The position numbers and the translations under genes are program-made. From NCBI RefSeq assembly GCF_006970445.1, contig NZ_CP033877.1, forward strand, positions 2,550,750 to 2,614,749: DNA of 64,000 bases, in the 5' to 3' direction. Positions 1-11,546 of the stretch are shown here, piece after piece. The first letter of the stretch is position 1; each line of letters opens with the position of its first letter. The notes under the pieces were generated by a model. That model worked only from the letters and a program-made list of their open reading frames with translations, made no database searches and was not told the DNA's origin. This DNA comes from Stenotrophomonas maltophilia (GTDB taxonomy: Bacteria; Pseudomonadota; Gammaproteobacteria; Xanthomonadales; Xanthomonadaceae).

Positions 1-1006
1 CGGACTGCAGGTCGCCGGTGCGCAGGTGGCGGGTGGCGCCACTGACGCGGTCACAGCTGCAGGTGTTGCAGATGCCCATGCGGCAGCCATGCTTGGGCTT
101 GATGCCATGGGCTTCGAGGCTCTCCAGCAACGAGCTGCCGCGCGGCACGCTCAGCTGGCGGCCACTGCGCGCCAACGTCAGCACTACCTCGCCTTCGCTG
201 CTGGCGTCACGCAACGGCGCCGGCGGGGTGAACGCTTCCGCCTGGAAACCAGCGACCTGGTACGCCAGGCGTTCGCGCGCAGCGGCAACGAATCCGTCCG
301 GGCCACAGGCCAGCACGTGGCGCTGCGCCAGCGGGGTGTCATCGCCTGCCACCTGCAGCGCGTGGGTATCGATGCGTGCGGCAGGTACATCACCTTCGCG
401 GGTGGTCAGCAGATGCACACGCAGGTTCGGCTGGCTCGCGGCCAGTGCCTGCAGCTCATCACGGAACTGCAGGTGGGCGGCACTGCGCTCCCAGTAGAAC
501 AGGTCCACGGGTGCGGCCAGCGGACGCTGGCAGGCCTCGCGCAGCAGGCTGCGCATCGGCGTGATGCCACTGCCGGCGGCCAGCAGAAATACCGGAGCCG
601 CCGCTGGCAACTGGAATTCACCGAACGCAGCCTCCAGGCGGAACAGCTCACCCGGCTGTGCGTGGTTGACCAGATGCTGGCTGACCCGGCCGCCCTCGAC
701 CGCCTTGACGGTGATCGCCAGTTCGCGCGGCCCGAGTGCGGTCGGGCTGTAGCTGCGCTGCCACAGGCGTCCTTCAATCTCTACGCCCAGGGTGACGTGC
801 TGGCCCGCGCGCATGCCGGCCCAGTGCCGGTTGGTGCGCAGGACCAGGGTTGCCGCGCCCTCGCCGGCCGGCTCGCGCCGCACCAGGCGGGCCACCGGCT
901 CGCGCAGGGTCCACAGGGGATTGAGCTGGCCCGCCCAGAAATCGAACAGCGACGGCGAGACCCAGCGGTACGGAGAGAACAGGGACGGACGGACGACAGC
1001 GCTCAT
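1..1006 (-). CDS. Ferredoxin reductase-like oxidoreductase with C-terminal [2Fe-2S] domain (partial, 3' end off window)
   Basis: The reading frame starts at the ATG at 1006 and stays open to the window edge, so the C-terminus is missing. The order is an N-terminal tail, an FAD-binding ferredoxin-reductase domain (RxYSPT for flavin), an NAD-binding domain (AAGSGITPMRS and ACGPDGF), and a plant-type ferredoxin domain whose cluster motif reads CRMGICNTC (C-x4-C-x2-C). Such proteins pass electrons from NAD(P)H to an oxygenase or desaturase. The divergent neighbour is a FabR/DesT-like repressor. In Pseudomonas the DesT repressor controls an acyl-CoA desaturase and a similar reductase (DesB/DesC), so I infer electron supply to a fatty acid desaturase encoded beyond the left edge. 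Confidence 0.85.
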   Translation of the reverse strand, partial: MSAVVRPSLFSPYRWVSPSLFDFWAGQLNPLWTLREPVARLVRREPAGEGAATLVLRTNRHWAGMRAGQHVTLGVEIEGRLWQRSYSPTALGPRELAITVKAVEGGRVSQHLVNHAQPGELFRLEAAFGEFQLPAAAPVFLLAAGSGITPMRSLLREACQRPLAAPVDLFYWERSAAHLQFRDELQALAASQPNLRVHLLTTREGDVPAARIDTHALQVAGDDTPLAQRHVLACGPDGFVAAARERLAYQVAGFQAEAFTPPAPLRDASSEGEVVLTLARSGRQLSVPRGSSLLESLEAHGIKPKHGCRMGICNTCSCDRVSGATRHLRTGDLQS

Positions 1007-1028
1007 GGGCGAACTATACGGGCGCACA

Positions 1029-1050
1029 TACACCTGTGTATACATGTGTA
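1029..1050. promoter_or_regulatory. Candidate operator for the TetR regulator in the divergent promoter
   Basis: TACACCTGTGTA (arms TACAC/GTGTA, 2-bp spacer) is followed directly by TACATGTGTA, which contains the palindrome ACATGT. The pair sits between the divergent reductase and TetR genes, where an autoregulating DesT/FabR-like repressor would bind. The assignment is by position and symmetry only. Confidence 0.45.
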
Positions 1051-1098
1051 TATTGAACCGGATTGGGTATGATTCAGCCTCGCCCCACCGGAACCCCC

Positions 1099-1755
1099 AT
1101 GGCCGCCGCCACCGCCTTGTCGACGCCCGAAGATGCCAACAGCCCGGCCCGCCGTACGGTGAGCCGCGAGGATCTGCTGGCCGCCGCCCTGAAACTGATC
1201 GGGCCGCACCGCAGCCTGTCCACGCTCAGCCTGCGCGAAGTGGCACGTGAGGCCGGCATCGCGCCGAACAGCTTCTACCGGCAGTTCCGCGACATGGACG
1301 AACTGGCCGTGGCGCTGATCGACGCAGCCGGCCGCTCGCTGCGCACCATCATCGGTGAGGCCCGCCAGCGCGCCACCTCCACCGCCACCAGCGTGGTGCG
1401 GGTTTCGGTGGAGACCTTCATGGAACAGCTGCGCGCCGACGACAAGCTGCTGCACGTGCTGCTGCGCGAAGGCGCGGTCGGCTCGGACGACTTCAAGCAT
1501 GCGGTCGAGCGCGAACTGCACTATTTCGAAGAAGAGCTGCAGCACGACCTGGTGCGCCTGGCCGCGCTGGATGGCGCCGTGCTGCATGCCCCTGAACTGG
1601 TGGCCAAGGCCATCACCCGGCTGGTGTTCGCGATGGGCGCCACCGCCATGGACCTGCCGCCGGAGAAGGATCCGGAGCTGATCGAACAGATCTCCACGAT
1701 GATCCGCATGATCATTGTCGGCGCCCGCACGCCCGCCGCATTCCGCCGCGGCTGA
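1099..1755 (+). CDS. TetR-family regulator, FabR/DesT-like
   Basis: The protein has 218 residues from the ATG at 1099. An in-frame ATG at 1069 would add ten residues but leaves almost no room downstream of the operator. The N-terminal helix-turn-helix reads SLREVAREAGIAPNSFYRQF and is followed by RDMDELAVALID, which is the signature of FabR/DesT, repressors that sense acyl-CoA or acyl-ACP and tune unsaturated fatty acid synthesis. The C-terminal ligand domain is helical and of normal length. It is divergent from the ferredoxin-reductase gene, and it likely represses that gene and itself. Which acyl ligand it reads is unknown. Confidence 0.82.
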   Translation: MAAATALSTPEDANSPARRTVSREDLLAAALKLIGPHRSLSTLSLREVAREAGIAPNSFYRQFRDMDELAVALIDAAGRSLRTIIGEARQRATSTATSVVRVSVETFMEQLRADDKLLHVLLREGAVGSDDFKHAVERELHYFEEELQHDLVRLAALDGAVLHAPELVAKAITRLVFAMGATAMDLPPEKDPELIEQISTMIRMIIVGARTPAAFRRG

Positions 1756-1767
1756 CGATCGCCCCCC

Positions 1768-1803
1768 GGGTCGGATCCCTTTCCAAGGGAAAGGGCTCTG
1801 ACT
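1768..1803. terminator. Terminator-like palindromic repeat (CCCTTTCC/GGAAAGGG family)
   Basis: The stem CCCTTTCC (1777-1784) pairs with GGAAAGGG (1788-1795), flanked by the imperfect arms GGGTCGGAT and CTCTGACTCC. It lies just after the TetR stop. Copies of the same design are at 6760-6798 and 12538-12577, so this is a dispersed family that probably ends transcription. Confidence 0.6.
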
Positions 1804-1943
1804 CCACCTCCCCTGCCCCCCACGGCAATTCCACCCTCCGCATATGACCACCGGCAGGGTTGTGGCCGTTATGTGTGATGTTATAACACTATCATGATCT
1901 GACTCGGCCAGTGCTTCACTCGGAATTGCTTCGGCTTCGTTAT

Positions 1944-1957
1944 ATAGCACTTGCTAT
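1944..1957 (+). promoter_or_regulatory. Candidate MntR box upstream of TonB receptor
   Basis: ATAGC-ACTT-GCTAT is a perfect inverted repeat with a 4-bp spacer. It matches the core of the Escherichia coli MntR operator (ATAGC-N4-GCTAT). It overlaps a TATATA element 88 bp before the receptor ATG, so binding would block transcription. The regulator gene mntR and a second box before mntH lie within 3.5 kb. Confidence 0.72.
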
Positions 1958-2033
1958 CTTCATAAGCCACTGCTTTCATATGCATCAGCCAGGTCGCCCT
2001 CGCCGCCTTTCTTCCCCCAAGGACGACGCCCTC

Positions 2034-4193
2034 ATGCGCTTTATCCCCCACCGCTTCCGCCGGTTGCCGCTCGCCGCCGCCATTGCCATCGCCCTGCCGC
2101 TGCCTGCTCTGGCCACCACTCCGAAACCGACCGAACTGGACCGTGTGCAGGTCAAGGTCAGCACTGCCACCCGCAGCGAACGCTTGCTCTCGGACGTGCC
2201 GATCCGCACCGAAGTGCTACGCAAGGAAGACATCGCGCTGCGCGCGGCCACGGACTTCTCGCGCGCCGCCGAGCTGATCAACGGCCTGCGCGTGGAGAGC
2301 AACTGCCAGAACTGCAACACCAGCGAAGTACAGTTGCTGGGCCTGCCCGGTGCCTACAACCAGCTGCTGTTCGATGGCATCCCGCTGCTGTCCACGCTGG
2401 GCAGCGTGTACGGCCTGGAACAGATCCCGGCCGGGTTCGTCGACCGCATCGAAGTGGTCAAGGGCGGTGGCTCGGCACTGTACGGCCCGGGCGCGGTTGC
2501 CGGTGTGATCAACCTGATACCGCCGCTGCCGGCACGCAGCGGTGGCCATGTGCAGGCCGGCGTGGATGTCCTGAAAGGTACGCCGCAGAAGAACGCCGAC
2601 GTGCGGCTGGACCTGGTGGCCAAGGAAGCAGACGCGGGCCTGTCAGTGATTGCCCAGCGCAACTGGAACAGTGGCATCGACTACAACGGTGACGGCTATA
2701 CCGAGATCACCCGCAAGAATCTCAAGGTCGGCGGGCTGCAGGCCTGGTACGCGCCCACACCGGGCACGCGGCTGCGCCTGGACCTGCAGGTGACCGATGA
2801 AACCCGCCGCGGCGGCAACCGCCTGGACCAGCCCGAGTACCTGGCCAACATCGCCGAATCACTGGACACGAAATACCGCCGCGGCAGCGTGTCGTGGGAC
2901 CAGGAAATCAATGCGGACGTCGATTTCCGCCTGGCCTACGCCTTCGCCGACATCGACCGTGACAGCTTCTATGGCGGTCTGGGTGATGTGGTCACCGATC
3001 CGTCCGCGCCCGGCTATGACCCGTCGCAGCTGGACCCCAACGTGGCTGGCAGCGCGGCCTCACGCTCATGGCGCCAGTATGGCCGCACCCACAACCCGCT
3101 GCACTACATCGACAGCCAGCTGAACTGGCGGCTGGGCGCGCACGCGCTGGCCTTCGGCGTGCAGTACAAGCACGAGGCGCTGCGCGACGACAACCGCACC
3201 GGTGACGGGCAGCGTATTGCGGTGCTGGAGGATGCGACCTTCCACAACCTGGGCGCCTTCATCCAGGACGAATGGAGCCTGCGCGACAACGTCGACCTGG
3301 TGCTGGGCGCACGCGTGGACAAGAGCTCGGAGCTGGACAACGCGGTGTTCTCGCCGCGCATCGCGCTGGCCTGGCAGGCCACGCCGAACCTGAAGTGGCG
3401 GGCAGGCGTTGCCACCGGCTTCCGTGCCCCGGAGATCTTCGTCGAGGATGTGCACGTCGATACGCTCGGCGGCGAACAGGTACGCGTGCGCAATACCGAT
3501 GGCCTGAAGGAAGAGCGCGCATTGACCACCCTGTTCGGCTTCGACTGGCGTTCGGACCCGGCCAATCCGGTCTGGAGCTGGGATGCTACCGCCTCGTATG
3601 CACGCATCCGCGATACCTTCGCGCTGGGCGAGATCCAGCGCGGCGATGACGGCCAGCTGAGCCAGCTGCGCTACAACGCTTCCGGCTCGAACGTGCTGGG
3701 CGCGGAAACCAACCTGGGCTGGCAACCCTCACCGCAATGGCGCCTGACCGCCGGTGCCTCGTGGTATCGCTCGCGCTTCCGCGAACCGCAGCGCATCTTC
3801 GACGACACCGGCGACGGTGGCGACACCGTGATCGAAAGCCGCGACTACCTGAAGACCCCGCGCTGGACCGGCCTGGCACAGCTCAGCTGGATGCCGGCCG
3901 AACCGTGGGAGACCTTCGTGGCGCTGCGCCACACGGGCCCGATGTCGGTACTGAACAACCGGCTGGGCGAGCTGCACCGCACGCGCTCGTTCCTGGTCAC
4001 CGACCTCGGGGCGCGCTGGCACCGGCACCTGGGCGCGCAGGCACAGCAGGAAGTGTCGGTGGCCGCGGGCGTCAAGAACGTCTTCGACCAGCGACAGAAA
4101 GACCTGGAAGTGGGGGCGCTGCGAGACAGCGACTATGTCTACGGGCCCCGTTTCGCACGTTCGTGGTACGTCAACCTGCGCTATGCGTTCTAA
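2034..4193 (+). CDS. TonB-dependent outer-membrane receptor, putatively manganese-linked
   Basis: The protein has 719 residues from the ATG at 2034. An upstream in-frame start would put the signal peptide inside the protein and run through the MntR box. The order is signal peptide (about 1-27, ending ALA), a plug domain with a CQNC pair at residues 91-94 and the plug signature RIEVVKGGGSALYGPGAVAG, then a 22-stranded-type barrel ending in the aromatic residue F (LRYAF). Its substrate cannot be read from the sequence. The MntR-type box and neighbouring mntR/mntH suggest uptake of manganese or a manganese chelate across the outer membrane. The last four codons overlap the next gene, which implies translational coupling. 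Confidence 0.85.
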   Translation: MRFIPHRFRRLPLAAAIAIALPLPALATTPKPTELDRVQVKVSTATRSERLLSDVPIRTEVLRKEDIALRAATDFSRAAELINGLRVESNCQNCNTSEVQLLGLPGAYNQLLFDGIPLLSTLGSVYGLEQIPAGFVDRIEVVKGGGSALYGPGAVAGVINLIPPLPARSGGHVQAGVDVLKGTPQKNADVRLDLVAKEADAGLSVIAQRNWNSGIDYNGDGYTEITRKNLKVGGLQAWYAPTPGTRLRLDLQVTDETRRGGNRLDQPEYLANIAESLDTKYRRGSVSWDQEINADVDFRLAYAFADIDRDSFYGGLGDVVTDPSAPGYDPSQLDPNVAGSAASRSWRQYGRTHNPLHYIDSQLNWRLGAHALAFGVQYKHEALRDDNRTGDGQRIAVLEDATFHNLGAFIQDEWSLRDNVDLVLGARVDKSSELDNAVFSPRIALAWQATPNLKWRAGVATGFRAPEIFVEDVHVDTLGGEQVRVRNTDGLKEERALTTLFGFDWRSDPANPVWSWDATASYARIRDTFALGEIQRGDDGQLSQLRYNASGSNVLGAETNLGWQPSPQWRLTAGASWYRSRFREPQRIFDDTGDGGDTVIESRDYLKTPRWTGLAQLSWMPAEPWETFVALRHTGPMSVLNNRLGELHRTRSFLVTDLGARWHRHLGAQAQQEVSVAAGVKNVFDQRQKDLEVGALRDSDYVYGPRFARSWYVNLRYAF

Positions 4194-4731
4194 GCTGCAG
4201 CGAACGTTGTTGCTGGCCTGTGCCGTGCTGCTGGCCGTACCGGCGATGGCTGCGGACCTGCACACGCAGGTTTCGGCCTCGCTGATGCGGCCGGAACAGC
4301 GCTCGCTGCGGCCGATGCAGTGGCCGCGGCCGCCGAAGCTGGTGGCGCTGTACTTCGGCGCCGACTGGTGTGCACCGTGCCATGCCTTCGTACCCACGCT
4401 GCGCAGCGTGCGCGACGCATTGCGCGAAGCCGGCGCCGATACCGAAGTGGTGTACGTCAGCCTGGACGAAAGCGAGGCTGCGTTGCGCCGCTACATGCAC
4501 GCGCAGGACATGCCGTGGCCGGTGCTGGACCCGCGCCGCGCCGCGCGCATGCCCGCGCTGCAGGCATTGGCCGGGTTGGCACCGCCGAACCTGGTGCTGA
4601 TCGATGCCGACGGGAATGTACTTGCCAATGGCTGGCACGGGCGCCGCTACGATGGCCTGCAGCCGGTGTTGAAGGAATGGACGAAACGCGCGTGCGCGCA
4701 GCAGCAGGCGCGCTGCCCGCCTGGATTGTAG
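4183..4731 (+). CDS. Exported thioredoxin-fold protein coupled to the TonB receptor
   Basis: The protein has 182 residues. Its ATG (4183) lies inside the last codons of the receptor gene. A signal peptide (about 1-23, AMA end) predicts periplasmic location. The fold reads as thioredoxin/TlpA: a beta-strand LVALYFGAD, then the active site WCAPC at residues 62-66, and a cis-proline-like APPNLVLIDADG segment. It could reduce or isomerise disulfides of an envelope protein. The receptor has its own CxxC in the plug, which is the obvious candidate partner. Function is inferred from fold and context only. Confidence 0.8.
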   Translation: MRSKLQRTLLLACAVLLAVPAMAADLHTQVSASLMRPEQRSLRPMQWPRPPKLVALYFGADWCAPCHAFVPTLRSVRDALREAGADTEVVYVSLDESEAALRRYMHAQDMPWPVLDPRRAARMPALQALAGLAPPNLVLIDADGNVLANGWHGRRYDGLQPVLKEWTKRACAQQQARCPPGL

Positions 4732-4771
4732 GATCGCGCGAAATGCCGCCGGGCATGGCCCGACGCAACCG

Positions 4772-5242
4772 TTACGGCGCCCCGCCCTCGGCCTTGCGCA
4801 CGAACGCTTCGAACAAGGCCAGTGTCTGTTCGCTCACATGGTGCTCGATGCCCTCGGCATCGCGCCGTGCGGTATCCGGGTCCACGCCCAGCGCCAGCAG
4901 GAAACGCTCCACCGTCTGGTGGCGCTGGCGGCTGGCATGGGCCAGCGCCTCGCCTTCCGGGGTCAGGAACACGCCGCGGTACGGCCGCTGCACCACCCAG
5001 CCATCGCGGGCCAGGCGCCGCAGCATCTTCGCCACGGTGGGCTGGGCAACACCCAGGCGCGTGGCGATGTCGACCTGGCGGGCCTCGCCGCCATCGGCCA
5101 GCAGGTCCGAAATCAGCTCGACATAGTCCTCCACCAGCTCCATCCGGTGCGCCTCGCGTACCTGCCGGAAGCTCTCGACCTGGCGCTCGGCCTCGATCAA
5201 GGGGGTGCTTTTCAGCGATGTCGAATCGTCGGTCTTGCCCAC
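4772..5242 (-). CDS. mntR: Manganese-dependent transcriptional repressor MntR
   Basis: At 156 residues the length fits the enterobacterial-type MntR, a DtxR-family one-domain-plus-dimerisation regulator. Recognisable stretches are [20 protein letters not shown], the winged helix [29 protein letters not shown], and the metal-site tail [13 protein letters not shown]. It binds Mn(II) and represses uptake genes. It is divergent from mntH, with the operator placed on the mntH side, and convergent with the receptor/thioredoxin pair. Two ATAGC-N4-GCTAT boxes nearby are its expected targets. Confidence 0.95.
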
Positions 5243-5323
5243 GCCTGCGCCTGTCCTTCCGGTGTAATCCGGTGTTGAACCTGAATTCTGGACCAGTAAC
5301 GCGATAAAGACGATTGTTTCACA

Positions 5324-5352
5324 TTGCTAATGACTATAGCAGGAGCTATATT
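5324..5352 (+). promoter_or_regulatory. mntH promoter with MntR box
   Basis: TATAGC-AGGA-GCTATA (5335-5350) is a perfect 16-bp palindrome with the MntR spacing. A -35-like TTGCTA (5324-5329) and a -10-like TATATT (5347-5352) stand 17 bp apart, so the operator covers the spacer and the -10 element. The start codon at 5360 lies about where transcription would begin, so the mRNA could be leaderless or nearly so. Confidence 0.75.
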
Positions 5353-5359
5353 CGGACCC

Positions 5360-6691
5360 ATGAACACCCTGGCGCCCCGCGACCCTTCGGCCTCCACTCC
5401 GGCCAGCCTGGGTGCGCTCAACGCCTCGGTCGCGGTGCCCGACAAGGGCCATTGGTGGTTCCGCCTGCTGGCCTTCCTCGGCCCCGGCTACATGATCTCG
5501 GTCGGCTACATGGATCCGGGCAACTGGGCCACCGACCTCGCCGGCGGTTCGCGCTTCGGCTACCTGCTGCTGTCGGTCATCCTCATCTCCAACCTGATGG
5601 CGGTGATCCTGCAGGCGCTGTCGGCGCGGCTCGGCATCGCCACCGGCATGGACCTGGCGCAGGCCTGCCGCGCGCGCTACCCGAAGCCGGTGAACCTGGC
5701 GCTGTGGGCACTGTGCGAGGCCGCGATCATCGCCTGCGACCTGGCCGAGGTGATCGGCACCGCGATCGCACTGAAACTGCTGTTCGATCTGCCCCTGTTG
5801 TGGGGTGCGGTGATCACTGCGCTGGATACATTGCTGGTACTGCTGCTGATGAACCGCGGCTTCCGTGCGCTGGAGGCCTTCGTGATCGCGCTGCTGATGG
5901 TGATCTTCGCCTGCTTCGTGGTGCAGATCGCGATGGCTGCGCCGCCGGTGATGGCGGTGCTGGGCGGCTTCATTCCGCGTGCGCAGGTGGTGACCGATCC
6001 GCACGCGCTGTACATCGCGATCGGCATCATCGGTGCCACGGTGATGCCGCACAATCTCTACCTGCATTCGTCCATCGTGCAGACCCGCGCCTACCCGCGC
6101 ACGGATGAAGGTCGCCGCAGCGCGCTGCGCTGGGCGGTGACCGACAGCACCATTGCGCTGACCCTCGCATTGTTCATCAACGCCAGCATCCTGATCCTGG
6201 CGGCGGCGGTGTTCCATGCCAATGGACGTTTCGACGTGGAAGACATCGAGCAGGCGCACCAGCTGCTGGCGCCGATGCTGGGCGTCGGCGCGGCGGCGAC
6301 ATTGTTTGCGATCGCGCTGCTGGCCTCCGGCCTGAACTCGACGGTGACGGCGACGCTTGCCGGCCAGATCGTGATGGAAGGTTTCCTGCACCTGCGCCTG
6401 CCGCCGTGGCTGCGTCGGCTGATCACGCGCGCACTGGCGATCATTCCGGTGGTGGTGGTGATCATGCTGTTCGGCGACCAGGGCGCGGTGAAGCTGCTGG
6501 TGCTGAGCCAGGTGGTGCTGTCGATGCAACTGCCGTTCGCAATCATCCCGCTGGTGCGGATCGTGACCGACAAGGTGACGATGGGGGCGCTGGTGGCGCC
6601 GCGCTGGCTGGGCGCGATCGCCTGGGTGATCGCGCTGGTGATCGTGGTGCTGAACGTGAAGCTGCTGGTGGATACCTTCAGCGGCGGGTGA
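5360..6691 (+). CDS. mntH: Nramp-family Mn(II)/H+ symporter MntH
   Basis: The protein has 443 residues with about 11 transmembrane segments. The first-helix metal motif DPGN is at residues 52-55, and the second metal motif [13 protein letters not shown] in the sixth helix is intact. Both are hallmarks of Nramp manganese transporters in the inner membrane. The start at 5360 follows the MntR operator directly. It is repressed by MntR by inference from the box and the divergent mntR gene. It is convergent with the ribonucleotide reductase operon. Confidence 0.95.
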
Positions 6692-6720
6692 TGCCAATTG
6701 CCGGGGTCGGTCCTGCCCCA

Positions 6721-6743
6721 GTAGATCCACGCCATGCGTGGAT
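6721..6743. repeat. SMAG-type GTAG palindromic repeat
   Basis: GTAG followed by the palindrome ATCCACGCCATGCGTGGAT. The GTAG head and short hairpin are typical of the SMAG repetitive elements of Stenotrophomonas. Related copies are at 29592-29614 and 30363-30423, with a degenerate one near 23523. Confidence 0.75.
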
Positions 6744-6759
6744 GACTTTACACGGCGTG

Positions 6760-6798
6760 GGGGTCAGAGCCCTTGCCGCTGGCAAGGGCTCCGACCCC
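6760..6798. terminator. Bidirectional terminator-like hairpin between mntH and the nrd operon
   Basis: GGGGTC-A-GAGCCCTTGCC pairs with GGCAAGGGCTC-C-GACCCC around a 3-nt loop. The long stem has one internal mismatch and lies between convergent genes. It belongs to the same family as 1768-1803 and 12538-12577. Confidence 0.7.
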
Positions 6799-6810
6799 GC
6801 CACCTCCGCG

Positions 6811-7137
6811 CTATAGATGCAGCGCGATCGCGGCCTCGATCTGCTGCGGCGACTGGAATCCGGCCAGGCGCGTGCGCTCATCACCGTCACGGAACAGCGA
6901 GAGGGTCGGTGTCTGCCGCAACCCCAGCTCCCGGAAGAACGCCTCACCCAGCACCTCCAGCTGCACGCGCAGCAACGTGGTGCCCTGCCCCGCGACGCTG
7001 TTGGCCACCCGGTGCAACGACATCTCCAGCATCCGGCAGCCCGGGCACTGGTCCTTGTGAAAATCCACCAGCACCCGCGGGTGCTCGGCCAGCAACTGCT
7101 GGAACTGCTCAGGCGTGGTGGCGTCGATGATCTGCAT
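6811..7137 (-). CDS. Thioredoxin-family protein of the ribonucleotide reductase operon
   Basis: The protein has 108 residues from the ATG at 7137 and no signal peptide, so it is cytoplasmic. The thioredoxin fold shows a VLVDFHKDQ strand, the active-site motif CPGC, and a QTPTLSLFRDG cis-proline segment. The start overlaps the end of the flavodoxin gene by 29 bp. Its position at the end of nrdA-nrdB-flavodoxin suggests that it reduces the C-terminal cysteine pair of NrdA, as NrdH does in class Ib systems. The CPGC site differs from the usual NrdH motif. Confidence 0.8.
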   Translation of the reverse strand: MQIIDATTPEQFQQLLAEHPRVLVDFHKDQCPGCRMLEMSLHRVANSVAGQGTTLLRVQLEVLGEAFFRELGLRQTPTLSLFRDGDERTRLAGFQSPQQIEAAIALHL

Positions 7138-7591
7138 CGCTGTTGCTCCAGTAATGGGCCAGGACCGCCTCGGTCCAGGCGTCGATGGCCTCGGCATGAC
7201 GCTCGCCATGCGGCATCTGTTCGATCTCCAGCGGCGGGTAGTCGCTGCGGAAATAGCGGATCAGCCGGTGCACGGCACCGCAGTAGTACTCCTGCCCCCA
7301 CTGCGTTTCGCCGGTGCCGAACACCGCCAGCTGCCGTGGCCGCTCGCCGCGCTCGGCAATGCCCGCCACCCACGCCTTCATCTCCGCCGGCGTGCGGCCG
7401 GCGTTGTCGGTCCAGCAGCCCAGCAGGACCAGATCGGCCTCGCCGGCGGCCAGCGGCGGCGCCTGCCGCAGGTCGTCGGCCTCGTGCCAGTGCACGGCGT
7501 GACCTGCAGCGCGGCAGCGCTCGGCGATCTGCCGGCCGAGCTCTCGGGTGTTGCCGCTCAAGGAGGCGACCACCACCAGGATGCTCAGCAC
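7109..7591 (-). CDS. Flavodoxin, putative NrdI-like partner of ribonucleotide reductase
   Basis: The protein has 160 residues from a GTG start at 7591, 10 bp after the nrdB stop. The FMN phosphate loop reads ASLSGNTRELG, followed by LLGCWTDNAG and AVFGTGETQWGQEYYCGA, which match short-chain flavodoxins. In class Ib systems NrdI is a flavodoxin that supplies oxidant for building the Mn(III)2-tyrosyl cofactor. This protein is not a clear NrdI by motif, so that role is inferred from its place in the operon. Alternatively it may reduce the diferric cofactor. Confidence 0.78.
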   Translation of the reverse strand: MLSILVVVASLSGNTRELGRQIAERCRAAGHAVHWHEADDLRQAPPLAAGEADLVLLGCWTDNAGRTPAEMKAWVAGIAERGERPRQLAVFGTGETQWGQEYYCGAVHRLIRYFRSDYPPLEIEQMPHGERHAEAIDAWTEAVLAHYWSNSDADHRRHHA

Positions 7592-7601
7592 GGCGCCGGG
7601 C

Positions 7602-8642
7602 TCAGAGATCGTCGAAGCCGTTGTCGACGTTGGTCTTCTTGTAACTTGCATTGCGCATCTCGAAGAAGTCGGTCTTGGTTTCAGTGAAGTTGTCGGCGTA
7701 GGCCTTGATCCACGGCATCACGTTGTCGGTGGTGTCGCTGTACAGGCGTTCGATGCCGAGCATGCCGGCCATCTTGTTGGCGCGGTACTTTACGTAGCGC
7801 ACCATCTCGTCCACGTCGATGCCATCGATACCGTCCAGCACCTCCGACGACCATTGCGTCTCCAGCTCGATGGCGTGCTCGAACGATTGGTGCACGTAGG
7901 CGGTCAGCTCGTTGGTCTGCAGCTCCGGGTTCTCGCCGATGATGGCGCGGATCAACTCGCTGATGAACTTGGTATGCGCCAGCTCGTCGCGGTTGATGAA
8001 GCTGATGATCTTGCCGGTGCCGTTCATGCGGTTCTGCCGCACCATGTTGTAGAAGTAGGCGAAACCGGAATAGAAGTTGATGCCTTCCAGGATCGAGGAC
8101 TGGATCAACGACTTCAGCAGGGTCTCGGCGGTCTTCTCGCGCATGAAGTCGTCATACGCGCCCATGATCGGTGCGTTGCGTTTGATGATGGTCGGGTGGG
8201 TGCGGGCGATCTCGAAGATGCGGTTCTGGTTCGGCAGGTCGGTGATCGAGGCCAGCACGTAGCTGTAGCTCTCGTTGTGGATCACTTCCTGCTGGCCGAT
8301 GATCGCCGCGTTGGCATGTGCAGCCGGGTCGGTGATGTACTCAGCCACGTTGTAGATGAAGCGCGTCTGCGGTGAATCCAGCGTGGCCAGCAGGCCGATG
8401 ATCGAGTCGTAGGCATTCTTCTCGCGTGCGTTGAGCTCGCCGTACTGGCGGGCGTCCAGCTTCATGTCGACCTCGTCGGGAATCCAGAAGTTGGTCGACA
8501 GCTCCTTGTAGGCCCGATAGAAGGACGGATAAGGAATGTCGTTCCAGTTGAGGATGCCACTGGTCTGGCCGTTGATGATGCCGGTGCTGCGATTGGGATG
8601 GCGCGGTTCGAGAATCTTGATGCGGTCGAGGGGGGTTGCCAT
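7602..8642 (-). CDS. nrdB: Ribonucleoside-diphosphate reductase beta (R2) subunit
   Basis: The protein has 346 residues of the ferritin-like R2 fold. All six metal ligands can be placed: D89 (TLDSPQTR), E119 and H122 (EVIHNESY), E186 (ILEGINF), and E220 and H223 (RDELAH). The radical tyrosine is Y126. The C-terminal tail ends GFDDL and carries a conserved-position tyrosine (ASYKK) for radical transfer to NrdA. It makes deoxynucleotides for DNA synthesis with NrdA. The subclass and metal (Fe or Mn) cannot be settled from sequence by eye. Confidence 0.92.
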   Translation of the reverse strand: MATPLDRIKILEPRHPNRSTGIINGQTSGILNWNDIPYPSFYRAYKELSTNFWIPDEVDMKLDARQYGELNAREKNAYDSIIGLLATLDSPQTRFIYNVAEYITDPAAHANAAIIGQQEVIHNESYSYVLASITDLPNQNRIFEIARTHPTIIKRNAPIMGAYDDFMREKTAETLLKSLIQSSILEGINFYSGFAYFYNMVRQNRMNGTGKIISFINRDELAHTKFISELIRAIIGENPELQTNELTAYVHQSFEHAIELETQWSSEVLDGIDGIDVDEMVRYVKYRANKMAGMLGIERLYSDTTDNVMPWIKAYADNFTETKTDFFEMRNASYKKTNVDNGFDDL

Positions 8643-8673
8643 GGGTTTCTGCCTTCGTTCTCTTTCTATCGTG

Positions 8674-8735
8674 TTGCCGGCCAGCGGCCGGCACTACCGT
8701 GGATCGCGATGTTGCCGGCCAGCGGCCGGCATTAC
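8674..8735. repeat. Two tandem SMAG repeats between nrdA and nrdB
   Basis: TGCCGGCCAGCGGCCGGCA followed by CTAC (8674-8696 core), and a second copy from 8713 ending CATTAC. Each is a 9-bp-arm hairpin with the GTAG tetranucleotide (read on the minus strand). They sit inside the nrd operon, where they could stabilise or process the mRNA. Confidence 0.85.
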
Positions 8736-8751
8736 CGTGGGTCGCCGGCGG

Positions 8752-11115
8752 TCAGCTGGAGCACCACTCGCATTCGCTGATGTCGATGTCGTTGGAGCGC
8801 ACGTAGTAAGTGGTCTTCAGGCCTTCGCGCCAGGCGCTCAGGTGCAGCTCCAGCAGGGTGCTGGCGCGGATCGTGCTGGGCACATACAGGTTGAAGCTGA
8901 TCGACTGGTCGACATGGCGCTGGCGCCGCGCGTTCTGGCGCACGCTGGCGAACTGGTCGACCTTGTAAGCCCCTTTCTCGTAGTACGGCCAGGTTTCCAG
9001 CGACAGGCCCGGCGCCGCCACCGGCCGCCGGAAGTCCTTCTTTTCCTCGTAGTAGAACGCGCTGTAGATCGGGTCGATCGACGCGGTGGAACCGGCAATC
9101 TGCGCGGTGCTCATGTTCGGCGCGACGGCCAGCAGCCAGCCGTTGCGCAGGCCGTGCGTGGCGACCTCGTGAGCCAGGCTGTCCCACGCGGCGCCAGTGT
9201 AGCCACGGTCGCGGAAGTAGCGCCCGTTGTGCCAGTCGCTGCCCGCGAACATCGGGTAGCTGCCCTTCTCCTGCGCCAGTTGCGCGCTGGCCTGGATGGT
9301 CAGGAAGTTGATGCGCTCGTATAGGCGGTCGGCCAGCGCTTCAGCATCCGGTGATTCCCACTGGATTGCCTGCTGCGCCAGCAGGTGGTGCCAGCCGAAC
9401 GTGCCCAGGCCGATGGCGCGGTACTTGCGGTTGGTGATGGTGGCCTGCGGCACCGGCAACGCGTTGAGGTCGATCACGTTGTCGAGCATGCGCACCTGGA
9501 TCGGGATCAGGCGCTCCAGCACATCGGTGGCCAGCAGGTCATCCGGCGCACTGATCGCCCGGCCGAGGTTGATCGAGGAGAGGTTGCAGACCACGAAGTC
9601 ACCGGCACGGCGTGTGGTGACGATCTGGTCGCCGCTGACGATCTCCTGGATCATCCGCGTCGGGCTCATGTTCTGCAGGATCTCGGTGCACAGGTTGCTG
9701 GAATAGATCATGCCCGCATGCTTGTTCGGATTCCGGCGATTGACCTCGTCGCGGTAGAACAGGAACGGGTTGCCGGTTTCCAGCTGGCTGAGCATGATCC
9801 GCTTGAACAGATCGATGGCCTTCACCGTGCGCCGGCTGATGCGCTCATCGGCCACCAGTTCGGCGTAGCGGTCGCGGAAGCTGCCCGCGCCGCGCGTCTC
9901 ATCATAGAAGTCCTGCAGGTACCAGCCCTTGGCCTGCTTCACCTCGTGCGGGTCGAACAGGTACCAGTCGGCGCGACGCTCGACCGCTTCCATGAACAGG
10001 TCGGGCACGCACACCGAGGTGAACACATCGTGCGCGCGCAGGCGCTGGTCGCCGTTGTTCAGGCGCAGGTCCATGAACGCTTCGATGTCGCGATGCCAGA
10101 TGTCCAGGTACACCGCCACCGCGCCCTTGCGCTGGCCAAGCTGATCGACCGACACCGCGGTGTTGTTGAGCTGCTTGATCCACGGCACCACGCCGCCGGA
10201 GGAATTGGCCACACCGCGGATCGGTGCGCCGCTGCTGCGCACGTAGCCCAGGTAGGCACCAACACCACCGCCGTGCTTGGACACGCGGGCGATATCGGTA
10301 TTGGAGTCATAGATGCCCTGCAGGCTGTCGTCGACCGTGTCGATGAAGCAGCTGGACAGCTGCCCACCCACCTTGCCGGCATTGGCCAGGGTCGGTGTGG
10401 CGACGGTCATGTACAGGTTGGACAGCGCCCAGTACGCCTCGCCGACCAGCTGCATGCGCCGCTCGCGCGGTTTTTCCTCCTGCATGAGGTACAGCGCGAT
10501 GGTCAGCCAGCGCTCCTGCGGCAGTTCATAGACCTCGCGGCTGCGGTCGCTGGCCAGATAGCGCGTGGCCAGCAGGTACAGGCCGTTGTAGGCGAACAGG
10601 CGGTCGCGTTCCGGGTCGATCATCTCGCCGGCCTGCTGCAGCTCTTCCTTCGAATAGCAGCGCAGGATGTCGTTGCTGTAGATGCCGCGGTCGGCCAGGC
10701 TTTCCTGCAGGCCCACGTAGGAGCCGTACTTCAGACCGACATCGTAGAAGCGGTTGCGGCTGGCGCGCTTGTACAGGCGGCGCAGGTAGATGCGCGCGGC
10801 AAACTGCTCCCACTCCGGCGCGACCAGGTCCACGCGCGACTCGGCCTCACGGATCAGCAGATCGACCAGGTCGTCGGCGCTGATGCTGGGCTTGCGCTCG
10901 ACCATCGCCTGCACCACGCGGCGGTAGTCGCTCACATCCAGCTGCGGGAACTCGGCATGCACCGCATCGATGCTGCGCTGCAGGCGCTCGGCCTCGAACG
11001 GCAGGCGGCGGTTGCCGGCCTCCTTGGTGATCCAGGTCGGCACGCGCTCGCCACCGGCGCGCAAGGCGTCGCCAGCGCCGGCCAGATCGGCCACGCGGAA
11101 GGTACTGTCGGTCAT
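8752..11115 (-). CDS. nrdA: Ribonucleoside-diphosphate reductase alpha (R1) subunit
   Basis: The protein has 787 residues from the ATG at 11115. The N-terminus has a short ATP-cone-like stretch (RLPFEAERLQRSIDAVHAEF). Catalytic residues are present: C256 (LSSCFI) and C510 (VVCNLSSINLG) as the reducing pair, N474, C476 and E478 (SNLCTEI) with the thiyl-radical cysteine, and Y770/Y771 (TTYYVRSN) for radical transfer. The tail ends CEWC (C782, C785), the pair re-reduced by thioredoxin. The frame continues upstream to 11316, but that extension is Arg/Pro-rich and unlike protein. Two SMAG repeats separate it from nrdB. Confidence 0.93.
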   Translation of the reverse strand: MTDSTFRVADLAGAGDALRAGGERVPTWITKEAGNRRLPFEAERLQRSIDAVHAEFPQLDVSDYRRVVQAMVERKPSISADDLVDLLIREAESRVDLVAPEWEQFAARIYLRRLYKRASRNRFYDVGLKYGSYVGLQESLADRGIYSNDILRCYSKEELQQAGEMIDPERDRLFAYNGLYLLATRYLASDRSREVYELPQERWLTIALYLMQEEKPRERRMQLVGEAYWALSNLYMTVATPTLANAGKVGGQLSSCFIDTVDDSLQGIYDSNTDIARVSKHGGGVGAYLGYVRSSGAPIRGVANSSGGVVPWIKQLNNTAVSVDQLGQRKGAVAVYLDIWHRDIEAFMDLRLNNGDQRLRAHDVFTSVCVPDLFMEAVERRADWYLFDPHEVKQAKGWYLQDFYDETRGAGSFRDRYAELVADERISRRTVKAIDLFKRIMLSQLETGNPFLFYRDEVNRRNPNKHAGMIYSSNLCTEILQNMSPTRMIQEIVSGDQIVTTRRAGDFVVCNLSSINLGRAISAPDDLLATDVLERLIPIQVRMLDNVIDLNALPVPQATITNRKYRAIGLGTFGWHHLLAQQAIQWESPDAEALADRLYERINFLTIQASAQLAQEKGSYPMFAGSDWHNGRYFRDRGYTGAAWDSLAHEVATHGLRNGWLLAVAPNMSTAQIAGSTASIDPIYSAFYYEEKKDFRRPVAAPGLSLETWPYYEKGAYKVDQFASVRQNARRQRHVDQSISFNLYVPSTIRASTLLELHLSAWREGLKTTYYVRSNDIDISECEWCSS

Positions 11116-11546
11116 GGTGGTGAAACTCCAGGCTCGCACGCGCGTTGGCGGTCGATGCCATGGCGGCCCTGCACGCGATACCGGCGCACGGGGCGAACGG
11201 GTGGATTGCCAGGGCACGGGAACGTAGGTCGTCGGCATCTGCCTGCGCCTGCGGCCGGTATCCGGGCCGTGGGGGCGACCTGCGTCCGCACGATGGCGGC
11301 CGCGTCGACACGGCAAGCCTTCAGGGGCGGGCCGCGGGACGTTTGCTGCATGTCCGGCGGCGGCGGCTGACCGGGAGTGACGACCACAACATAGTGGGGA
11401 TACTCGGAGCCGTCAACACAAGATGCGGTAATCAGCACATGTCGCGACGATCAGTCGCAGGATGCCGTGTTGCACCGGCGGCGCCTTGTCGACAACGCCT
11501 GCGTCCCCAGTTCGGTAGAACATCAACTTTCCCCGGAACACCGCCC
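11116..11546. other. Intergenic region upstream of nrdA and the MDR gene, mostly nrdA leader
   Basis: This is 431 bp of divergent spacer. Its right third holds two NrdR-box-like sites, which would place the nrdA promoter near 11400 and leave a GC-rich leader of about 260 nt. I looked for a cobalamin riboswitch (conserved B12 box) in the leader and did not see one. No small gene can be supported. Confidence 0.5.
11384..11431 (-). promoter_or_regulatory. Two candidate NrdR boxes upstream of nrdA
   Basis: CCACAACATAGTGGGG (11384-11399) and ACACAAGATGCGGTAA (11416-11431) each partly match the NrdR consensus acaCwAtATaTwGtgt; the first keeps the core CAACATAGTG. They start 32 bp apart, which is the helical spacing of paired NrdR boxes. 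NrdR represses RNR operons when dATP is high. The second site is weak. Confidence 0.5.

Follow-up and report, generated by a model that had tools for sequence, protein, structure and literature searches.

We analysed a stretch of 64,000 nucleotides from Stenotrophomonas maltophilia (contig NZ_CP033877.1, positions 2,550,750 to 2,614,749; hereafter the window), in which the gene for a TonB-dependent receptor of the CQNC plug type (2034..4193, plus strand; PF07715 and PF00593) is followed by the gene for a periplasmic thioredoxin-fold protein, pTFP (4183..4731, plus strand; PF13905, 50.5 bits). The best explanation of our results is that the two genes form an inducible outer-membrane metal-acquisition operon under dual MntR and Zur control, with manganese and zinc as cargo, a reading to which we give a probability of about 0.45. 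The initial annotation had presented the pairing as unknown, which does not stand: the same operon was published in S. maltophilia Sm18 as orf2357-orf2358 (TBDR-pTFP) in PMC13217887 (Argueta-Zepeda et al., Curr Res Microb Sci, 12 May 2026). The observation is real, and the proposal of a candidate manganese uptake system is already in print as a candidate. Our literature search, made on result listings, showed no second publication on the receptor/thioredoxin pairing and none linking this operon to Zur. What is new here is the Zur-like operator and the proposed switching of the operon between manganese and zinc regulons.

We turn first to the control by MntR. From left to right, the locus holds a TetR-type gene, the receptor gene, the thioredoxin-fold gene, mntR on the opposite strand and mntH. 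The initial annotation had matched the operator of the receptor promoter to that of mntH, with mntR between them, and both points are borne out: the MntR box of the receptor operon, ATAGCACTTGCTAT (1944..1957), and that of mntH, ATAGCAGGAGCTAT (5336..5349), are exact ATAGC-N4-GCTAT palindromes whose starts lie 3392 bases apart, on either side of mntR (4772..5242, minus strand; NF008273, 249 bits, cut-off 153). The coupling of receptor and thioredoxin by overlap is likewise real, the receptor stop lying within the start region of the pTFP gene, with 11 bases shared. The two boxes are the sole exact matches within the window. When up to two mismatches were allowed, 11 matches were found against 10.3 expected, which is chance level, and we therefore restricted the box work to exact or symmetric variants. 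The host genome (4.55 Mb, Stenotrophomonas; its receptor is 99% identical to that of S. maltophilia) contains the exact pattern three times and the reversed control pattern once. Just after the third site come a manganese riboswitch, which scores 46.8 bits with RF00080 (gathering score 45), and an open reading frame (ORF) identified by eye as MntP-like, and the three boxes thus sit at three manganese loci: the receptor operon, mntH and the riboswitch/MntP-like gene.

Across the genus, the receptor was found in 33 of 91 Stenotrophomonas genomes. At least three exact sites occur in 31 of the 33 receptor-positive genomes and in 5 of the 58 receptor-negative ones; however, the reversed control itself reaches 0 to 6 matches per genome, and consequently we dropped the counts as evidence and let the position of the sites carry the argument. 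In this respect the conservation upstream of orthologs is clear, as all 30 of the Stenotrophomonas promoters fetched (out of 33 receptor-positive loci) carry the exact box, and likewise 3/3 Xanthomonas and 7/10 Luteimonas promoters. Together with the reporter derepression seen in an mntR deletion of Sm18 (PMC13217887), the conserved box makes MntR control of the receptor operon well supported. Direct binding of MntR to the box appears likely from the sequence; the sections of PMC13217887 consulted report no MntR footprint.

We then considered other lineages. A scan of public genomes with the receptor alignment gave 115 matching loci, of which 80 were taken; 38 form a close clade (L004-L039, L041 and L071) and the remaining 42 are remote. 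Over 81 receptor loci (these 80 plus the window), the zones around receptor starts make up 63 of 1,171 kb and hold 29 of the 52 TAGC-N4-GCTA sites. The other 23 comprise 16 mntH boxes, two sites just upstream of mntR (L034/L035), four scattered sites and the receptor box of L017, which was scored outside the zone because the receptor ORF opens early there. An mntR-like gene lies inside the locus in 30 of the 38 close-clade loci. Nine neighbouring regulators were scanned and seven scored above the MntR cut-off (L025, L028, L030, L033, L035, L039 and L067, the last from outside the close clade), L047 and L068 scoring below it. MntR-type genes and TAGC-N4-GCTA boxes recur at the receptor in Xanthomonas, Luteimonas, Sphingomonas and Verrucomicrobiota, with an outer base pair that varies symmetrically: A/T in Stenotrophomonas, Xanthomonas and Luteimonas, T/A (TTAGC..GCTAA) in Sphingomonas L037-L039 and Verrucomicrobiales L067, and G/C (GTAGC..GCTAC) in L030 and L048. 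The variant boxes stand beside mntR in L037-L039, L030 and L067, and L048 has no mntR in view. No perfect box was found at the receptor in four mntR-bearing loci, namely Sphingomonas L032 and L033, Ereboglobus L028 and Cephaloticoccus primus L041; in L041 the receptor gene (7716-10048) is also split into two overlapping frames, by a frameshift or a sequencing error. In three Xanthomonas genomes the receptor is on a contig separate from mntR and mntH, and the box is kept in all three; two of these genomes give four control matches for four box matches, so that here too the argument rests on position. The receptor is present in 10 of 52 Luteimonas genomes, a set that largely overlaps the named Luteimonas loci, so the two counts are not independent. 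On a 30-row receptor tree, in which L034/L035 were scored as lacking a box near the receptor, the presence of the box requires at least five changes, four of them forced by well-supported branches.

The second component of the proposed regulation is a conserved promoter element further upstream, TGTGATGTTATAACA (1874..1888), which resembles a Zur box. It emerged from an alignment of 18 upstream regions (the window, 16 Stenotrophomonas loci and L117) as an almost invariant block, TGT(A/G)ATGTTATAACA, present in 18/18; L017 is the most divergent, with paired changes that preserve the palindrome. It is also present in 30/30 fetched genus promoters, 28 with A and two with G; for the three remaining receptor-positive loci it was judged from coordinates (G219 and G407) and from L017, which shares contig coordinates with G369. 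In the host genome TGTTATAACA is found once. Of the 91 genus genomes, 36 have a single exact copy of the element (32/33 receptor-positive, 4/58 receptor-negative), and none has its reversed control. In the four receptor-negative genomes it starts about 40 bases before the first start codon of a different TonB receptor; with the ZnuD model (cut-off 950), two of these receptors score 694-697 bits and two 150-155 bits. According to PMC4176598, GTTA-N5-TAAC is the Zur motif of many proteobacteria, and one activated Caulobacter site has a GTAA half. We predict, on the strength of its conservation and of the genes before which it stands, that Zur is the regulator most likely to bind the element. Fur was considered as its owner and set aside on a poor fit to the Fur box by eye, the window not having been scanned for Fur boxes.

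The host genome encodes two Fur-family proteins, a Fur above its cut-off (162 bits) and a Zur-like protein (125 bits); some 4 kb separate the gene of the latter from that of a ZnuD-like receptor (447 of 950 bits). A longer Zur-type pattern, with up to three mismatches, has nine matches in this genome, including one at the receptor promoter, two before the ZnuD-like receptor and two at other TonB receptors (L128/L137 and L133/L138). At a further site (L135, 475500-481000 of the same genome) a Zur-type match lies between divergent genes for a CobW/ZigA-type GTPase and for MerC; this is probably a core zinc-starvation locus of the host.

A further link to zinc comes from Luteimonas. The three of ten promoters that lack the MntR box (L021, L022/L121 and L024) carry instead Zur boxes that match GTTA-N5-TAAC exactly and lie about 81, 224 and 485 bases upstream. 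Of the seven promoters with an MntR box, five have a Zur-type site too, although at a distance of 738-875 bases, and in L025, L026 and L071 this distant site precedes a ZigA-like gene on the far side of mntR. The locus of L. panaciterrae (L022) runs from a ZigA-type GTPase (568 of 600 bits) through a Zur box and MerC to the receptor and the thioredoxin. ZigA-like genes 67-70% identical to that one flank the receptor in L023, L025, L026 and L071, and in Coralloluteibacterium both ZigA-like and MerC genes are near the receptor. Hence the manganese assignment of the initial annotation is well supported as regards MntR control, but manganese alone is too narrow, given the Zur-like element and the Luteimonas Zur boxes and neighbours.

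The receptor has the plug and barrel domains of TonB-dependent receptors, and its AlphaFold2 model (pLDDT 90) adopts a BtuB/Cir fold. Its only cysteines are C91 and C94, within C91-Q-N-C94 (codons 2304..2315, plus strand). Across 109 aligned receptors C91 and Q92 never vary and C94 hardly does; 18 of these receptors came from a scan with CQ[NS]C in the bait and are uninformative on this point. CQ[NS]CN is present in 114 of 120 listed homologues; among the six others P0110 reads CQNH, and P0091, P0096, P0106, P0009 and P0060 are partial or short. In the model the motif falls in a loop that links plug strands (residues 90-96) and lies opposite the loop preceding the IRG strand of Cir. We take this loop to face outwards, by homology with TonB receptors in general. 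A second conserved loop, DxNxDGxxE (residues 216-224; 2679..2705, plus strand), in which D216 and D220 are invariant and E224 nearly so, is reminiscent of loops that bind calcium; among the close fold matches, BtuB has calcium-bound entries (1nqg and 1nqh). The BtuB (TIGR01779, 48.6 of 599.7 bits) and copper-receptor (TIGR01778, 31.8 of 472 bits) models miss their cut-offs, and an OprC fold match was dropped as a copper lead because the score is so far under the latter. More distant CQNC receptors, at 30-40% identity, were found in metagenome-assembled genomes (MAGs) of Acidobacteria, Aminicenantes, Verrucomicrobia and Ignavibacteria-like bacteria; the family is therefore wider than the "restricted" one of PMC13217887.

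The thioredoxin partner adjoins the receptor in 34 of the 38 close loci. In 6 of the 42 remote loci an adjoining ORF matches the pTFP profile at 39-51 bits (L046, L058, L060, L067, L074 and L075), the one scanned, in L067, being nearest to ResA but under the cut-off. The cysteines of the CAPC motif (C63-C66; codons 4369..4380, plus strand) are invariant in 15 aligned rows; the Stenotrophomonas proteins have two extra C-terminal cysteines, C171 and C178, that are missing from the Luteimonas and Xanthomonas relatives in this alignment. The legend of Fig. 6D in PMC13217887 attributes pTFP to Opitutales as well; it was found beside the receptor in 0/4 close Verrucomicrobiota loci here, and other taxa may be meant. 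The redox-assisted step of the initial annotation would rest on CQNC in the receptor and CAPC in the thioredoxin, and PMC13217887, which notes both motifs and the synteny of the two genes, already suggests that the thioredoxin reduces CQNC.

The inner-membrane importers beside the receptor are of three kinds. mntH (5360..6691, plus strand), encoding an NRAMP manganese importer (NF001923, 650 bits, cut-off 430), accompanies it in 16/16 Stenotrophomonas loci. A metal ATP-binding cassette (ABC) importer directly follows receptor and thioredoxin in Luteimonas XNQY3 (L027), and one follows the receptor in two Cephaloticoccus (L030 and L041). The L027 and L030 ATPases pass the manganese/iron SitB-type cut-off (415.7 and 394.8 of 393 bits); the L041 importer is 81-90% identical to that of L030, its ATPase being placed by 90% identity. 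The ABC substrate-binding proteins miss the cut-offs of both models compared, at 200-209 bits for zinc AztC and 185-204 bits for manganese EfaA. Finally, two MAGs of alphaproteobacteria have, between a boxed mntR and the receptor-thioredoxin pair, genes for a ZIP-like protein (25 bits, cut-off 35) and a multicopper oxidase (L034 3681-6082, L035 5433-7828); the oxidase is conceivably a manganese oxidase. These swaps point to a divalent metal, not one metal, as cargo, and from this gene order an outer-membrane uptake arm is plausible as the role of the receptor.

Some neighbouring features may be mentioned here. The TetR-type gene (1099-1755; FabR model NF008402, 172 bits, cut-off 151) is separated from the receptor start by a 278-base gap. 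A scan of 1756-2040 detected no sigma-70 promoter, and an Rfam scan of 1-9000 gave nothing above gathering scores, so that neither a cobalamin nor a metal riboswitch was found upstream of the receptor. Directly after mntH, the minus strand (6814-11130) carries a thioredoxin gene, a gene for a flavodoxin that scores 159 of 163.8 bits with TIGR01754 ("RNR-associated"), and the ribonucleotide reductase genes nrdB and nrdA. The enzyme scores 153 of 355 bits with the class Ib model and is a candidate manganese-using reductase adjoining a manganese importer. All 16 Stenotrophomonas loci have the same thioredoxin, flavodoxin and nrdB genes, as does Luteimonas L026 in the vicinity of its receptor (NrdB 92%). 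Two Xanthomonas loci have a siderophore-type nonribosomal peptide synthetase (NRPS) on the minus strand near the receptor (L036 13257-17240, L020 12081-16064), with condensation, AMP-binding, carrier and thioesterase domains as scanned in L036, to which L020 is 89% identical; no relative of it was found in Xanthomonas L019 or in the window.

We propose the following scenario. In manganese-replete cells, Mn-MntR would sit on 1944-1957 and block the promoter, in line with the reporter regulation in Sm18, and the operator at 1874-1888, with Zur as its predicted ligand, would bring zinc into the decision. Release of both operators would lead to the synthesis of the TonB-energised receptor, whose plug presents the two CQNC cysteines in a loop that homology places on the outward face. 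The co-translated thioredoxin would keep or make these thiols reduced, probably during the periplasmic transit of the receptor, since the loop should face outwards once folded. A Mn2+ species, and probably also Zn2+ or a shared chelate, would then be imported into the periplasm and passed to the inner-membrane importer of the species, which gene order suggests to be MntH here, a Sit/Mnt-type ABC system in Luteimonas XNQY3 and Cephaloticoccus, or a ZIP-like protein in the two alphaproteobacterial MAGs. On this scenario the receptor may serve zinc besides manganese.

Several observations weigh against this scenario. The element reads GTGA-N5-TAAC in the window and GTAA-N5-TAAC in most siblings, one mismatch from the Zur motif either way; the Zur-like protein falls short of its family cut-off (167 bits); the longer Zur-type pattern has three matches with its control; and its matches at L130, L132 and L134 are at genes without evident zinc link. 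Two of the three Xanthomonas promoters are without a Zur-like site (the third, that of L036, has a site with one mismatch), and the AT-rich palindromes of Coralloluteibacterium L023 and of L123 are no more than a loose fit. Four close loci, all Verrucomicrobiota (L028, L029, L030 and L041), have a CQNC receptor without pTFP beside it, and in 2/3 Xanthomonas loci (L020 and L036) the NRPS is encoded on the strand opposite to the thioredoxin gene, at a distance of 1.5-2.6 kb from it. In Sm18, RNA-seq and reporter induction occurred solely under joint low manganese and low iron, and deleting either gene gave no growth phenotype (PMC13217887). Iron as well as manganese silenced the promoter there, and manganese still repressed residually after mntR deletion, an MntR-independent input left unexplained; a zinc-only Zur would not obviously give either effect. 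The MntR dependence and the residual repression that does not need MntR are, as such, nonetheless also among the points in favour of the scenario.

One rival reading is a receptor dedicated to manganese, with MntR alone setting the logic and Mn2+ or a manganese chelate as cargo, as put forward by the initial annotation and by PMC13217887; the upstream element would then belong to another, perhaps iron-linked, regulator. The frequency of mntR-like genes in the close clade, the MntR boxes across lineages, the adjoining ABC ATPases of manganese/iron type and the loss of expression at 80 nM manganese in Sm18 (PMC13217887) all speak for it; yet it leaves aside the Zur boxes that replace MntR boxes in Luteimonas, the ZigA-like and MerC neighbours and the sharing of the second element with ZnuD-related receptors, and we regard it as possible but rather unlikely. 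Those zinc-type boxes and neighbours of Luteimonas, together with the ZigA-like and MerC genes of Coralloluteibacterium, the CQNC dithiol and the substrate-binding proteins that score at least as well with AztC as with EfaA (all below cut-off), would fit a zinc receptor recruited into the MntR regulon, where the CQNC thiolate binds Zn2+ and MntR control reflects joint manganese and zinc starvation (host chelators, peroxide stress). We consider this improbable, because MntR is the more frequent neighbour, the ABC ATPase is of manganese/iron type, the Stenotrophomonas MntH belongs to a manganese importer family and the receptor has no ZnuD model match. A receptor for a siderophore or another organic complex, of Cir/BtuB-like fold and with a ligand relevant under manganese and iron shortage, gained slightly in weight from the Xanthomonas NRPS, but it too seems improbable: the receptor is far under the cut-offs of siderophore, B12, heme and copper receptor models, the window has no relative of the NRPS, and the neighbours elsewhere are metal regulators and importers.

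Beyond the dual MntR/Zur control of the operon, we speculate, as an idea more doubtful than the control itself, that the CQNC receptor and its thioredoxin are a module for divalent first-row metals that moves between manganese and zinc regulons, the thioredoxin gating metal binding at the plug thiols. It would have three states: an MntR box but no clear Zur box in Xanthomonas and most Luteimonas promoters, the reverse in some Luteimonas, and the two boxes together in Stenotrophomonas, in which case the Stenotrophomonas operon reads out the shortage of manganese and of zinc together. If so, it would be, to our knowledge, the first TonB receptor with a metal site thiol-primed by a dedicated periplasmic reductase. 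The passage of manganese across the outer membrane is poorly understood and few receptors have been described. A zinc operator on the receptor promoter could account for the silence of manganese-centred phenotype tests, and priming of the plug cysteines would add a redox step to TonB-dependent transport.

The operon can be compared with several known systems. In MnoT of Burkholderia thailandensis, said to have been described by Si et al. in 2017, there is reportedly another manganese-dependent TonB receptor, working with a secreted manganese-binding protein, TseM; the likeness is that of a manganese-linked outer-membrane receptor, compared by description and not by sequence. TlpA reduces a cysteine metal site ahead of metal loading, and pTFP shares with TlpA and ResA the thioredoxin fold and a CxxC motif, the domain being recognised by PF13905; it is below the curated ResA/TlpA cut-offs (NF002854, 33 of 170 bits; NF047696, 22 of 230 bits) and forms a clade of its own in PMC13217887. 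ZnuD and the Caulobacter ZnuK/L/M receptors (PMC4176598) serve a divalent metal and have genes behind GTTA-N5-TAAC boxes, to which the predicted cargo and the Zur-like element of the window receptor would correspond; unlike ZnuD, the window receptor carries CQNC, and the ZnuD model NF038289 is absent from the 24 families listed for it at E 0.001. The nearest system is orf2357-orf2358 of Sm18, with the same operon, mntR/mntH neighbours, both cysteine motifs (CQNC and CAPC) and a box at the same position, 75 bp upstream of the start, in a genome that likewise has three MntR sites, the same as those found here (PMC13217887); we see no difference in the locus itself. The difference lies in its distribution and its regulators: PMC13217887 describes a sparse family whose full set is confined to Stenotrophomonas, and a term search of its main text finds no mention of Zur or Xanthomonas, whereas receptor, thioredoxin and box occur together in Xanthomonas and Luteimonas too.

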